DNA from: Candidatus Bathyarchaeota archaeon | GTDB taxonomy: Archaea; Thermoproteota; Bathyarchaeia; Bathyarchaeales; Bathycorpusculaceae | Length of the DNA stretch: 64,000 nucleotides | Direction of reading: 5' to 3' | Assembly: GCA_026014735.1 (NCBI GenBank) | Contig: JAOZHT010000001.1 | Coordinates: forward strand, 806,001 to 870,000 | Shown: positions 3,194 to 13,793 of the stretch, piece by piece | How positions within the stretch are numbered: the stretch's first letter is position 1 | Layout: every line of letters begins with the position of its first letter | The notes under the pieces: generated by a model | The model's input: the letters and a program-made list of their open reading frames with translations, nothing else | The model's database searches: none | Told to the model about the DNA's origin: nothing | Made by a program: the position numbers and the translations under genes

Positions 3194-3221
3194 CTAGTGT
3201 GTTGGTTGTATATCGCCTTTG
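3194..3221 (-). repeat. Partial copy of the rnpB 3' end (copy C)
   Basis: On the minus strand it reads AAAGGCG, three or four changed bases, then TACAACCAACACAC and AGCCC. The true RNase P RNA gene ends AAAGGCG-GGT-TACAACCAACACAC-CATGCCC at 5787-5812. About 22 of 26 positions agree. It is shorter and more decayed than copy B at 4304-4359. Confidence 0.55.
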
Positions 3222-3342
3222 GGCTTAGTAATTTTTTAGACTAAAAAACACCAGGCATAATCTGCCAATGGTTGAGGATTGATGATTAGAAATTGGGCAT
3301 AGCGGGTTAGCTCTTGCAGGCAGGAAGTGATGTTCCAAGTAA

Positions 3343-3393
3343 GGAACAATTCGTTCCAGCAGTAGAACTAACAACGAGGTCACGTATAAGTGA
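3343..3393. promoter_or_regulatory. Small inverted repeats upstream of surface protein gene
   Basis: GGAAC-aattc-GTTCC (3343-3357), with an extra TGTTCC at 3331-3336, and GTCAC-gtataa-GTGAC (3378-3393) lie just before the gene at 3411. They could be operators or leader hairpins; no regulator is identified. Confidence 0.3.
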
Positions 3394-3410
3394 CTTGAGG
3401 GCGAATTTCC

Positions 3411-4142
3411 GTGAGCATCATGAAATTATCGCTAATTATCATTGCGACGGCTCTGATACTATTGACCGCGACATTTTATTTTGAATCCGCTCCACATTCC
3501 TTTTCCCCAAAACCTGTTCCGTTCGATTACAATTTGACTGTTGCAGTACCAGAAAGCAACGTGAGGCAGGGCGCTGAAATGCATACTTATCTCACCGCAA
3601 CCTACATTCAAGGGAACCCTGAAAATGTAACTTTTAATATAACTGGACTTCCTGACGACGCAAGCTTTGAATTAACAACCCTACAAGGGCTACTAGCCAA
3701 TAATACCGTTTTAAACAGTAATTTGACTATCCATGTTCCCACAAATGTTCCGCTTGGGAATTACACCGTATTAGTGAGCTCTGCAGCGGCGAATGGAGCA
3801 ACCCATAATTTCGCATTCAATTTAACTGTTACAGACAACATCGTAGTTTCGGGCGTGATTACTACCAATTCATGGATTAATGTTACCGGAGTAGTCTTTG
3901 AGATGCAAAAGCCTGACTATACCGGTGGCGAAAAATATTATGGAACGGTTCTGTCAAGTAGCGAATTCACAGTTTATGTTCCAAACAACCATTTTTACTA
4001 CGTTGGATACACTTATACAACCGCATTAAGTTCAGGAACTAGATGGTTCATATTGCCTATCTCAATTTTTGCCGCAAGTGACAAAACCGAAATCACTGGA
4101 GAACAATTCAGCATGATGTGGAATGATGACAATCCATTTTAA
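3411..4142 (+). CDS. Membrane-anchored extracellular protein, unknown function
   Basis: 243 residues. One N-terminal hydrophobic segment (residues 5-22, LSLIIIATALILL) is followed by a beta-rich region with many N-glycosylation sequons (NLT, NVT, NIT, NNT), as expected for an archaeal cell-surface protein. The middle (about 65-135) resembles an Ig-like/NEW3-type fold often found in archaeal surface proteins. The start is a GTG three codons before an ATG; either may be used. It lies between two partial rnpB copies (3194-3221 and 4304-4359). No function assigned. Confidence 0.75.
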   Translation: MSIMKLSLIIIATALILLTATFYFESAPHSFSPKPVPFDYNLTVAVPESNVRQGAEMHTYLTATYIQGNPENVTFNITGLPDDASFELTTLQGLLANNTVLNSNLTIHVPTNVPLGNYTVLVSSAAANGATHNFAFNLTVTDNIVVSGVITTNSWINVTGVVFEMQKPDYTGGEKYYGTVLSSSEFTVYVPNNHFYYVGYTYTTALSSGTRWFILPISIFAASDKTEITGEQFSMMWNDDNPF

Positions 4143-4303
4143 AATTTTTTTGATCGAACAGGCTTGCTTTTTGAATGCACGTTTTTTTCGAGTCGTGGAT
4201 GCAAAAAGGCATTATGAAAAAATAAATGTGTTTGCGATGACCCTTGTGGTTGCTCAGTCTCGATTCTTTCTAAGCTCAAAGCGTTTTTTATCTGGGTAAA
4301 GAA

Positions 4304-4359
4304 TTGGCTGGTGTGCTGGTTGTAACCCGCTTTCTGTTAACTGTGACCTTCGGCTAATC
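4304..4359 (-). repeat. Partial copy of the rnpB 3' end (copy B)
   Basis: Bases 4309-4359 match 5789-5839 (the last 50 or so bases of the RNase P RNA) at 45 of 52 positions, in the same orientation. The copy includes the conserved 3' segment GCGGGTTACAACCA and the 3' strand of helix P1, and similarity stops sharply beyond CGGCTAATC. It lies 1,480 bases from the intact gene with one complete CDS between. The remainder of 4143-4437 holds no gene. Confidence 0.8.
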
Positions 4360-4437
4360 AGGGGTAAGTTATTTCTAGATGAAGCTTTTTTTGCAGTGGA
4401 ACCACTTAGGAAAACGATGCGTCTTTTACTTTTTAGC

Positions 4438-5706
4438 TCATTTTTTTAGCTGTCTATGTACTTTAAAAATTAGCAGAACAGCCAGCAGAACTATAGCAAC
4501 AGCGAAAGGTGCCAGCCCAAGGTCAGTTGAATCTACGGGGGAGGTCTCTAGCCATTCAGGCGCCTGAGTTTGAACCTGAGGGATCTCTACTGGTTTGACG
4601 AGGGGGTGATTATCATAGAAGTCGTGTTTATAGAATCGGGGACCATAAATTTCGGTAATTGTATATGGGGTATCGTAGGTTCCCGTACTGGCGTTTATTC
4701 GGGCTGCTGGATTCTGGGTTAAGTAATCGTTGTAGTAGTTGCCGACTGTCCCATTATCCCAGCTTGGACCAGTGGGGTCATAAGAAATATGCGCTGCCCT
4801 ATCAAGATAAGAATTGTTGATAAAATTGTTGCAATAAAACACGTTGCTTAGGTCGACAGCTGCGGAATAGACGACCGCATGATTTTTGGTGAAATTATTC
4901 TCGGTGAAAGTACAGTTACTTCCGAGTAGCCACACGGCTTCACCGCAATCATAGAAGACATTTTTTGTGATATTGTTAAAGTTGCCGTAGTCCTCAAAGC
5001 GCGCGTTAGCGATGTAGTTCCCAACTATGTTTACATACGATGCTTGGACGCCTATGTTGTCATAGGAGACGTCGGGGCTTCGAGAATTATTCACCAGCAA
5101 GTTCCCCGAGATAACGCAGCCAGATTTGATTGAATTACTGGAGACATCAAACATCACGCCGGCGCCAAAGTTGTCTCGTATGGCGTTGTCAGAAATCAAA
5201 ATATTTCTTGAACCACTTGAATGTACTGCCATGTAACTGGTTGTTGTGATGAGGTTTTGTGCTACCCATATGTATTGGCAATTGTTGAACAATATTCCTT
5301 TCTCTGCGTTGCGAATGGTGTTATTGGAGAAGGTGCAGTAGAGGGAACTATTTGATTCGATAGCGTGGCAAAAAGCATCTATTACAAAGCCCGTGACTAC
5401 AACGTGGGTTTTGCGCTCAAAGGAAATCGCGGATTGATTCCTAGTTAGATCATTCAAAGCTAAAATGCTGTAACCGTTTCCCACTAAAACAACATTATCC
5501 CGCTCTATAACAATGGGGGAGGTTAGGTTTGCAGTCAGCGTGTAAGTGTCGCCATCACGGCTAATTTTGTCAGTGCCGACCACAGAGCCATCGGCGGCTA
5601 TAGTTATCACCGGAACACCAAGTTGAGCGTTTATAGGCGGCAATAAAAAGGGTAAAAACGTAAAAAACACCAGCAGTAACGCATAACTTTTGTATTTTCT
5701 GTGCAT
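4438..5706 (-). CDS. NosD-like right-handed beta-helix surface protein
   Basis: 422 residues from the ATG at 5706, chosen because a signal peptide starts there (MHRKYKSYALLLVFFTFLPF). A longer frame to 5871 would read into the RNase P RNA. Residues about 75-340 are repeated short strands rich in Asn (NxI/NxF, e.g. ISDNAIRDN, ISGNLLVNN), typical of the parallel beta-helix NosD/periplasmic copper-binding repeat. A C-terminal membrane helix (AVAIVLLAVLLIF) plus basic tail anchors it to the cell surface. Probable polysaccharide- or ligand-binding surface protein; catalytic role unknown. It sits between intact rnpB and copy B. Confidence 0.85.
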   Translation of the reverse strand: MHRKYKSYALLLVFFTFLPFLLPPINAQLGVPVITIAADGSVVGTDKISRDGDTYTLTANLTSPIVIERDNVVLVGNGYSILALNDLTRNQSAISFERKTHVVVTGFVIDAFCHAIESNSSLYCTFSNNTIRNAEKGILFNNCQYIWVAQNLITTTSYMAVHSSGSRNILISDNAIRDNFGAGVMFDVSSNSIKSGCVISGNLLVNNSRSPDVSYDNIGVQASYVNIVGNYIANARFEDYGNFNNITKNVFYDCGEAVWLLGSNCTFTENNFTKNHAVVYSAAVDLSNVFYCNNFINNSYLDRAAHISYDPTGPSWDNGTVGNYYNDYLTQNPAARINASTGTYDTPYTITEIYGPRFYKHDFYDNHPLVKPVEIPQVQTQAPEWLETSPVDSTDLGLAPFAVAIVLLAVLLIFKVHRQLKK

Positions 5707-5786
5707 AGTTACCCCGTGTAAATCTGCTGATATATAATTTACGTTGTTTTCTTTCCCTTGACAAAACAAGAATGCAAACGATTGGG

Positions 5787-6099
5787 CATGGTGTGTTGGT
5801 TGTAACCCGCCTTTTGTTGTCTGTGGCATTCGGCTAATCGGGCTACCCGCGCCTTCCGGTAGAGTCTTCATCGGCGTCTGTTTGCCCTTTCCACTTGCAG
5901 GACGGCCGTTTCACCGTTTCCCACTCGGCGGACTCTGCATCACAAATGCGTCATAGCCAAATTCCGGGGGGACGTTTCGTTTCTGCTCCGTTGCCAAGCC
6001 TTTAGGCCTGTACCCTGTGGGCACTGCAATTCTACATGTGGGCGGAGTTTCCTCAGTCCCCAAAGGGACCGATAGCCACACACCAACCCACCAGCCCAT
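5787..6099 (-). ncRNA. rnpB: RNase P RNA (archaeal)
   Basis: Read on the minus strand: CTGAGGAAACTCC (CR-I), then GGCAACGGAGCAGAAACG (the archaeal GGCAACGG-CAGAAACG block, CR-II/III), GGTGAAACGGC (CR-IV region), and near the 3' end GCCGAATGCCACAGACAAC and GGCGGGTTAC (CR-V region). The ends pair as helix P1 (GGUGUGU with ACACACC, plus GGGU). A TATA-like element (CTATAAGG/CTTTATTG) lies at 6121-6140, about 25-30 bases upstream. It processes tRNA 5' ends. Ends are placed from P1 and are approximate. Small reading frames across this locus are spurious. Confidence 0.93.
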
Positions 6100-6158
6100 G
6101 TGAAAAAGCGGGGAGGATGGCAATAAAGGTACCTTATAGATGGCTTCAAATGGTTGCA

Positions 6159-6692
6159 TTATTCTCGCCAATGCTCAGGCTTCCTTAATGCCTCGCAGGG
6201 TATCACTTTACCTGAAACCGAGCCAATTATGTTTGGGCGAAGTTGTTGAACCATCCATGCATCAGCGTCTTTTTCAGGAATCGGGTAGAAGGCTTCAAAG
6301 CCCAATTCTCCAGCGCGCATGAACCCACACCGGGGATAATAGGTTGGATGCCCAAGCACAAAAACCAAATCTACCTCGCATTGTTGGATTATTTCTAATC
6401 CTTTTTTGATTAATGCAGCGCCGACGCCTTGTCTTTGAAATTTTGGAACCACAGCAAGGGGGGCCAAGATAGAGACCTTAACGTGGGGGTTGCCTGTGAG
6501 GTGGGCAGATGTGAATAATATGTGCCCTGCAGGTTGGTTGTCTATATATGCTAACAATGAGGTAAGGGGTTGGGCAGTAGGGTCAAATAGCATATCTTTG
6601 GTCAGGTCTGCTTCTTCGTTTTTGTTGAATGCTTCACGCTCAACTAGTAGTATGTCGTTTAGATCAGCGTCGGTGGTTTGTTTAATTTGCAT
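6159..6692 (-). CDS. GNAT-family N-acetyltransferase
   Basis: 177 residues from the ATG at 6692 (MQIKQTTDADL, the usual GNAT N-terminus). The acetyl-CoA motif A is VVPKFQRQGVGAALIKKGLE (Q/RxxGxG/A) near residue 85-105, followed by FVLGHPTYYPRCGF, typical of the YhbS/predicted small-molecule acetyltransferase group. Substrate unknown. It ends 60 bases upstream of rnpB in the same direction, and a copy of the rnpB promoter and 5' end lies upstream at 6776-6828, so it may be expressed from that duplicated promoter. Confidence 0.9.
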   Translation of the reverse strand: MQIKQTTDADLNDILLVEREAFNKNEEADLTKDMLFDPTAQPLTSLLAYIDNQPAGHILFTSAHLTGNPHVKVSILAPLAVVPKFQRQGVGAALIKKGLEIIQQCEVDLVFVLGHPTYYPRCGFMRAGELGFEAFYPIPEKDADAWMVQQLRPNIIGSVSGKVIPCEALRKPEHWRE

Positions 6693-6775
6693 ATATGATG
6701 CACTGTCCAATGATCGTTTTTCTCCTATATAAAAGGCAGAAAGATCGCAGGCTATCAAAACAATAAGCAAACATC

Positions 6776-6828
6776 CACACACTAACCCACCAGCCCCTTA
6801 GGCTGATTCAGGGGGGCAGACAATAAAG
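6776..6828 (-). repeat. Copy of rnpB promoter and first 22 bases
   Basis: On the minus strand GGGCTGGTGGGTTAGTGTG (6776-6797) matches the rnpB 5' end (6076-6097) at 21 of 22 positions. CTTTATTG (6821-6828) lies 24 bases further upstream, as it lies 23 bases upstream in rnpB (6121-6128), and ATAAGG precedes it in both. Similarity ends after the GTGTGTGG. Confidence 0.75.
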
Positions 6829-8378: not shown

Positions 8379-8969
8379 ATGAAACGTGTTATCCTCATCA
8401 CTGGCACACCCTGCGTGGGCAAAACCACCGTTGCCAAAGCCTTAGCCGCCAAACTCAACGCGCAATACATAAACCTCACCGAATTCGCCAAAGCAAATGG
8501 CCTTATTGAAAGCGAAGACAAAGAGCGATGCACCCTTGTCATCAAAGAGGAGCAGATGCAGCAGCAACTAGGCAAAGCCATAGATGATTCAGAAAGCAGC
8601 ATCATCATCGTTGATGGACACTACGCAAGCGCCATAGCCCCCACTGAGCATGTTGCAAACGTTTTTGTCCTAAGAAGAAACCCCAAAGAACTCAAAGCCT
8701 TCATGCAAAAACGCGGCTACAGCGGCACCAAGCTCTGGGAGAACCTGCAGGCAGAAATCATCGACGTATGCCTAGGCGAAGCTGTACAGGTGCATGCGGG
8801 AAGAGTCTGTGAACTCGACGTAACCGGCAAACCCGTCGAGGTGGTTGTGGAGGAAATCGTTGAGGTGCTTGAGAAACATCGAACATGCATGGTTGGCGCC
8901 ATCGATTGGATGGGACTGCTTGAGGCAGAAGGCATCCTTGATGAGTACCTAAAAGTTGATGTTACCTGA
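8379..8969 (+). CDS. Adenylate kinase family NTPase (Fap7/AK6-like)
   Basis: 196 residues. Walker A at residues 7-14 (GTPCVGKTT), and a short helical lid region with HTNxxxRR-like VFVLRRNPKELKAFMQKRGYSGTKLWENLQAEI that is characteristic of the AK6/Fap7 group (nucleoside monophosphate kinase/ATPase that helps mature the small ribosomal subunit). IIIVDGHYA matches the Walker B/HY motif of the family. The C-terminus is about 20 residues longer than usual. The 3' end overlaps the convergent gene by 8 bases. Confidence 0.88.
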   Translation: MKRVILITGTPCVGKTTVAKALAAKLNAQYINLTEFAKANGLIESEDKERCTLVIKEEQMQQQLGKAIDDSESSIIIVDGHYASAIAPTEHVANVFVLRRNPKELKAFMQKRGYSGTKLWENLQAEIIDVCLGEAVQVHAGRVCELDVTGKPVEVVVEEIVEVLEKHRTCMVGAIDWMGLLEAEGILDEYLKVDVT

Positions 8970-13686: not shown

Positions 13687-13793
13687 GCCGAGGTAGCTCA
13701 GCCTGGGAGAGCGCTCGACTTAGTTACTTCTCGTAACTAGGGGCGAAGCTGAAGACCGAGTCGTCGCATGTTCAAACCCTGCCCTCGGCACCA
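13687..13793 (+). tRNA. Intron-containing tRNA, probably Phe (GAA)
   Basis: Acceptor GCCGAGG pairs with CCTCGGC; D arm GCTC...GAGC; discriminator A13790 and encoded CCA. The anticodon arm is interrupted by about 30 bases (within 13718-13750) that form a hairpin (TAGTTAC-ttctc-GTAACTA). Removing them gives stem CTCGG/CCGAG and loop CTGAAGA, anticodon GAA, and the acceptor and D arm fit archaeal tRNA-Phe. The exact splice sites are ambiguous by three bases and the position (near 30/31 or 33/34) is not the common 37/38. The T stem GCATG/CCTGC has one mismatch. Confidence 0.8.

Follow-up and report, generated by a model that had tools for sequence, protein, structure and literature searches.

The 3' end of the RNase P RNA gene as a probable attachment site for small gene-splitting integrative elements of Bathyarchaeia

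Gene-splitting integrases of archaea comprise the SSV, pTN3 and pT26-2 types, which carry PF16795 and are regarded as having a single origin; the same review lists tRNA genes, protein-coding genes and intergenic sites as targets, with RNase P unmentioned (PMC8371274). In these suicidal elements (SSV1, pTN3, pT26-2) the integrase gene contains the attachment site within its 5' part, so integration splits the gene and int(N) stays at one border. The elements of Bathyarchaeia described here share this arrangement and are likewise small, with several per genome. However, their integrases match PF00589 and give no PF16795 match, their targets are rnpB, the RNase P RNA gene, and tRNA-Ala(CGC) rather than mostly tRNA genes, and in two of them the split falls in a separate leader frame. 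The tRNA and tmRNA islands of the Islander type (PMC4383910) also have a restored RNA gene at one end and a direct fragment of its 3' end at the other, whereas here the RNA gene is rnpB, several scars stack and the members in the window appear to have lost their integrase. Integrons resemble the present loci in forming cassette arrays at one site through recombination by a tyrosine recombinase; unlike their attC hairpins, the sites seen here are rnpB ends, and the integrase travels with the element.

The window analysed is a 64,000-nucleotide stretch of a Candidatus Bathyarchaeota archaeon genome (part of G000:C1; G-numbers denote the genomes compared, C contigs and L locus labels), and the relatives are Candidatus Bathyarchaeota assemblies (palsa_989, bog_990, DYS_1). 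The minus strand of the window carries a complete archaeal gene for RNase P RNA (5785 to 6097; Rfam RF00373 RNaseP_arch at 5791 to 6091, 187.6 bits), whose ends were set at about these positions by the directly visible strands of P1. Its TATA-like box CTTTATTG (6121 to 6128, minus strand) is a motif that also occurs upstream of rnpB in G007 and G016 at a similar distance. The 3' end of rnpB faces the left of the window, and leftward from it lie a gene for an exported beta-helix (NosD-like) protein with a C-terminal membrane anchor (cargo 1, 4438 to 5706, minus strand; PF05048, E = 1e-12; PF13229, E = 4e-10), a 62-nt copy of the rnpB 3' end (4301 to 4362, minus strand), a gene for a small exported protein (cargo 2 or ORF243, 3411 to 4142, plus strand) and a shorter copy (3195 to 3238, minus strand). 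ORF243 had zero matches in Pfam, NCBIfam and PADLOC, and no homologue of the beta-helix gene was found at the other loci compared. A sequence-only reading of this DNA had named a surface beta-helix protein, a glycosylated surface protein and a GNAT enzyme, and we agree with these gene types, which correspond to a beta-helix/NosD protein, an exported ORF without family and a GNAT enzyme. On the right-hand side, an adenylate-kinase-like gene (8379 to 8969, plus strand) is a conserved neighbour, being present upstream of rnpB in G003, G005, G006, G013, G016 and G017. Beyond it, a third Rfam tRNA match of 104 nt (13687 to 13790, plus strand), missed by ARAGORN, is probably an intron-containing tRNA.

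The partial copies of the rnpB ends reported in that reading are real. The long-type copy at 4301 to 4362, which lies as a scar between cargo 1 and cargo 2, is 85% identical to rnpB over 54 nt (nhmmer E = 4e-12), and the copy at 3197 to 3220 is 88% identical over 24 nt. Searching 50.5 kb for a 23-nt core with at most five mismatches returned exactly the 3' ends of rnpB and of these two copies, and none in 20 single-base shuffles, which, together with the E value of the long copy, excludes chance for the copies in the window. The short-type copy consists of rnpB core (3195 to 3220) fused to an integrase leader (3216 to 3238). It retains the leader sequence LLSPKAIYNQHTSP, its six-frame reading gives the leader peptide SKKLLSPKAIYNQHTSP at 3216 to 3238, and leader plus core reached E = 5e-10 in a whole-genome search. 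Because this copy keeps the integrase leader, the 3' copies of the window can be read as attachment scars of serial insertions, and 3195 to 3238 would be the outer border of an older one. Judged by sequence likeness, AAAAGCTTCATCTAGA at 4374 to 4389 (minus strand) is a possible relic of the integrase promoter AAAAGCTTATAACTAGA. Neither an integrase nor an integrase relic was found in the window, and the mechanism proposed below is taken from the relatives; the window would thus represent the decayed remains of two insertions that presumably kept their surface-protein genes and lost the integrase. In the relatives of this genome rnpB is at most 90% identical, too distant to define an empty site of the window insertions at the level of single bases.

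In G022, G017 and G011, a tyrosine integrase gene (PF00589) starts less than 100 nt from the rnpB 3' end on the same strand, and close relatives of this integrase occupy the same place in three genomes of other genera (G102, G081 and G078). The relatives' integrases score 59.3 and 57.5 bits with PF00589, and R, HxxR, H and Y are conserved in A1; PF16795 gave no match at these positions or in the integrase proteins. The far borders in relatives carry the integrase promoter, the leader and the rnpB core. By joining the far-border leader and the rnpB-side body of G011 at the core, we obtained an uninterrupted 403-codon integrase frame (MSQTNNTKNYCTEKAGYCQYTSPKPLSDEQ...), which identifies gene-splitting integrative elements with an attachment site in rnpB. 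Additionally, an open frame continues from rnpB into the integrase gene of G102 and, in G013, into an integrase relic. In G022, the leader frame stops a few bases inside the integrase gene, while in G017 the far-border leader has lost its core, and the frame read from the core stops precisely on the start codon of the integrase; in both, integration would cut the integrase off from its promoter and leader. G078 and G081 have stop codons between rnpB and the integrase, so that gene splitting is not apparent in them. The G017 and G022 elements also share a Rep-like protein with the conserved motif SPHFHC(V/I)GF; it has homologues in the tRNA-Ala elements described below and no family match, its putative HUH-type assignment follows from the motif, and its structure prediction (pLDDT 27) was unusable. 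No free circular or viral form was found in IMG/VR by integrase or leader pattern, and a plasmid collection contained no close integrase and no Rep match. Use of rnpB as an attachment site appears to be unreported in open-access papers (subscription papers lay outside the search), as does gene splitting by PF00589 rather than PF16795 integrases.

We consider it highly probable that the rnpB 3' end, on the left in the window, serves as attB for small integrative elements of Bathyarchaeia, the serial insertions of which leave scars. In such an element, the promoter and first approximately 20 codons of the integrase gene (leader MSE..KKLLSPKAGYNQHTSP) would be split from the rest by a core of about 26 nt, almost the same in sequence as the 3' end of rnpB. 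Recombination at this core, as reconstructed in silico in relatives, would restore rnpB with its last bases coming from the element, so that the integrase body would end up directly 3' of rnpB and the orphan promoter, leader and core at the far border. A new element could then enter at the restored rnpB end, and insertions would for this reason stack outward, as is seen in G013, G011 and G022 and as we infer for the window. The split integrase would decay later, while small surface-protein, toxin-antitoxin and defence-like genes may stay. Applied to the window, the older insertion would be ORF243 bounded by 3195 to 3238 and the younger one the beta-helix gene between rnpB and 4301 to 4362. The split-integrase model does not predict long copies (54 to 135 nt) at a far border, which need a second crossover position or element type, and copies away from rnpB require secondary insertion or rearrangement.

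The stacking is seen in G013, where the order outward from rnpB is an integrase relic with an exported protein, a short copy, genes for PRC and CBS proteins, a further short copy, VapBC, a long copy and then a CdvB-like gene. In G011, an integrase and a phospholipase-D-type protein are followed by a short copy, an exported protein, another short copy and the chromosome. G022 has a 7.6-kb element with an integrase, a radical SAM protein and the Rep-like protein, and the short copy at its end is also the contig end; a second contig of G022 has this core at its own end, followed by an older VapBC unit. The assembly (C15 and C80) is broken exactly at the rnpB core repeat, and rnpB arrays may go unseen in short-read MAGs on account of such repeats. 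The CdvB-like gene is a native neighbour downstream of rnpB in the apparently unoccupied loci of G001, G006, G010, G044 and G047, and across the genus rnpB is commonly followed by this CdvB/Snf7-like gene (L053:6037-6687 and relatives). A 41-kb accreted island from rnpB to the CdvB-like gene was considered for the present genome and rejected, because the genes found there belong to the ordinary core set (respiratory complex, proBA, pelota, hisA). Integration at rnpB, serial accretion and a repeat of the RNA gene end at the far border had all been suggested from the window alone, and they are borne out by the integrases at rnpB and the int(N) leader and rnpB-end junctions at far borders of relatives. 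The same suggestion spoke of integrase-less cassettes; elements that lack an integrase by nature have to be given up, because truncated or frameshifted integrase remains after rnpB in G013, G018 and G005 indicate an integrase that was split and then lost.

A search for repeats of this kind around rnpB in related genomes had been advised, and they are present. With the whole rnpB gene as query, 41 genomes yielded about 18 secondary matches, spread over eight or nine of them, and a second search of 32 genomes of the genus returned the same set plus two in G043. The phenomenon is much wider than the window, with more 3'-end copies on C3 and C4 of its own genome and in eight relatives. The short copies contain about 26 nt of rnpB and are mostly preceded by a conserved promoter-leader module made up of the TATA-like AAAAGCTTATAACTAGA, a start codon and codons for about 12 to 20 residues; the leader peptide ends in LLSPKAGYNQ(H/Y)T, and its last residues are the rnpB core read as protein. 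The long copies contain 54 to 135 nt of rnpB and lack the leader. The window has one of each type, short at 3195 and long at 4301. Long copies in G000:C3, G013:C27 and G003:C27 best match the rnpB of their own genome, by a margin of one point in G013. A seemingly deletion-type copy in G003:C75 proved to be the intact gene with a four-N assembly gap, and a 5'-end match in G003 belongs to this same gapped gene. Leader plus core is also an easily used tag with which archaeal genomes can be searched for hidden elements.

An alternative is that rnpB has slowly duplicated in tandem and decayed, with the genes between the copies arriving by chance. The copies do stand in direct orientation, the 5' copy of the window includes the rnpB promoter, and the long copies at L054, L056 and L061 may have weak similarity beyond the main block. 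However, across several genomes every one of the approximately 18 secondary copies, apart from the 5' copy of the window, is anchored at the 3' end of the RNA, and this disfavours tandem duplication for the 3' copies. Nor does duplication explain why the short copies are joined to the promoter and leader of an integrase, or why integrases and their relics sit at rnpB. The in-frame integrase junctions largely refute it for the 3' copies, though not for 6775 to 6828, and as a general account we regard it as quite improbable. Less probable still, and without support in our data, is that the copies are 5'-truncated retrocopies of RNase P RNA made by reverse transcription. Such copies would have a fixed 3' end and a variable 5' end, and the long copies do share a 3' end and differ in 5' extent; but the short copies are joined to the promoter and leader of the integrase at the DNA level, both types coexist in the same arrays, and no reverse transcriptase was noticed among the ORFs read.

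Harder to separate from serial integration, with which it overlaps, is an integron-like platform in which rnpB arrays consist of cassettes with their own rnpB-derived sites that any integrase of the family would move in trans, and the leader promoters would drive the next cassette. Cassettes without an integrase predominate, the same VapBC pair stands beside rnpB-end copies at different loci (G013, G022, G003, G018), and off-site copies lie near genes that form a clean junction in relatives. Against this, integrase relics at rnpB favour integration of whole elements followed by loss, and the integrase proteins score 16 bits with the integron integrase (IntI) model TIGR02249, far below its cut-off of 265. 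We hold this platform to be unlikely, and serial integration of gene-splitting elements remains our preferred reading.

The off-site copies occur in the window's own genome and in relatives, with genome pairs sharing the chromosomal genes near which they lie. In G000, one copy away from rnpB (C3:267899-268003) is 94% identical over 105 nt, and another (C4:329593-329631; L231:7604-7703) consists of leader and rnpB core of the TTACGTCC type with a degenerate promoter module. The stretch G000:C3:267899-270832 (L005:7900-10833) is a second cassette of this genome, in which a long copy at one end and a short copy at the other enclose an AbiV-like HEPN gene and an exported protein. Because other relatives show clean junctions, insertions exist at two off-site loci as well: PurQ and RbsK are 0 to 5 nt apart in G003, G013 and G017, and UbiA and CdvB2 are 94 to 196 nt apart in G013, G003, G017, G007 and G011. 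The boundaries of these insertions do not coincide with the rnpB-end copies, and the off-site copies may have arisen by rearrangement, by secondary integration or through cassettes that moved in trans. At L126 (G102:C8:216037-217171), a second, disrupted integrase copy lies beside a core after a methyltransferase-like gene; this core is 160 kb from rnpB and inverted, and core-mediated inversion is possible.

On the other side of rnpB, the GNAT acetyltransferase gene (6159 to 6692, minus strand; PF00583) had been counted among the genes placed between copies, as cargo. It lies between rnpB and the 5'-end copy rather than between 3'-end copies, and G007 (80% identity) and G016 have it at the same position, directly upstream of rnpB, without a 5' copy; it is therefore a resident neighbour, and cargo status is ruled out. 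The 5' copy (6775 to 6828, minus strand) comprises the rnpB promoter and first 22 bases, with 21 of 22 matching at 6775 to 6796 and the box CTTTATTG in reverse complement at 6821 to 6828, spaced by 24 nt compared with 23 nt in rnpB. It was absent from the other rnpB loci examined and found in this genome only. Integration at the 3' end does not explain its origin, and our best idea is an unrelated local duplication; slow tandem duplication, proposed earlier for the copies in general, is disfavoured for the 3'-anchored ones. The copy might act as a second promoter for the GNAT gene.

The promoter-leader module is not confined to rnpB. In G007, G011 and G018 it terminates in the 3' half of tRNA-Ala(CGC), and in G014 in a 5' half of tRNA-Arg(CCT) in reversed orientation; G009 and G003 have similar fragments. 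At L223 (G007:C3) and L224 (G011:C10) the integrase frame crosses tRNA-Ala, and the joined integrases are open 328-codon frames that are 91% alike; L225 (G018:C4) is a third sister element in tRNA-Ala(CGC), and the Rep-like protein is shared in G007 and G011. These integrases are barely alignable with those at rnpB (best E about 0.1), both being PF00589, and the leader module and the Rep-like protein (35 to 44%) are common to both sets of elements. In G007, two leader copies 1.15 kb apart enclose an exported membrane-anchored protein, a format like that of the window. The rnpB end GGCGGGTTACAACC resembles the T-arm GGCGGGTTCAAATCC, and GGCGGGTT is common to the rnpB core and the tRNA T-arm, which suggests that the target may have changed from tRNA to rnpB. 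A much wider reading, which we find rather doubtful, is that a PF00589 lineage evolved gene splitting independently of the SSV superfamily, that the shared module was exchanged between distantly related integrases and switched sites among tRNA-Ala, tRNA-Arg and rnpB, and that the resulting rnpB arrays, in the manner of integrons, store cassettes for surface, toxin-antitoxin and defence functions that move in trans.

These elements add RNase P RNA to tRNA and tmRNA among the RNA genes whose ends mobile DNA takes over and reconstructs, and in these archaea the most recently integrated element appears to supply an essential ribozyme with the 3' strand of its P1 helix. The module that rnpB and tRNA genes share gives a concrete system in which to examine target change by integrases and to test if gene splitting had the single origin stated in the 2021 review or several. 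At the rnpB 3' end itself (5790 to 5812) and in relatives, two positions of the core GTTAC(NN)CC vary strongly by species, NN being AA, GT, GG, TG, TT or AT among species and AA in most displaced copies; these two bases are perhaps the overlap region exchanged at integration.
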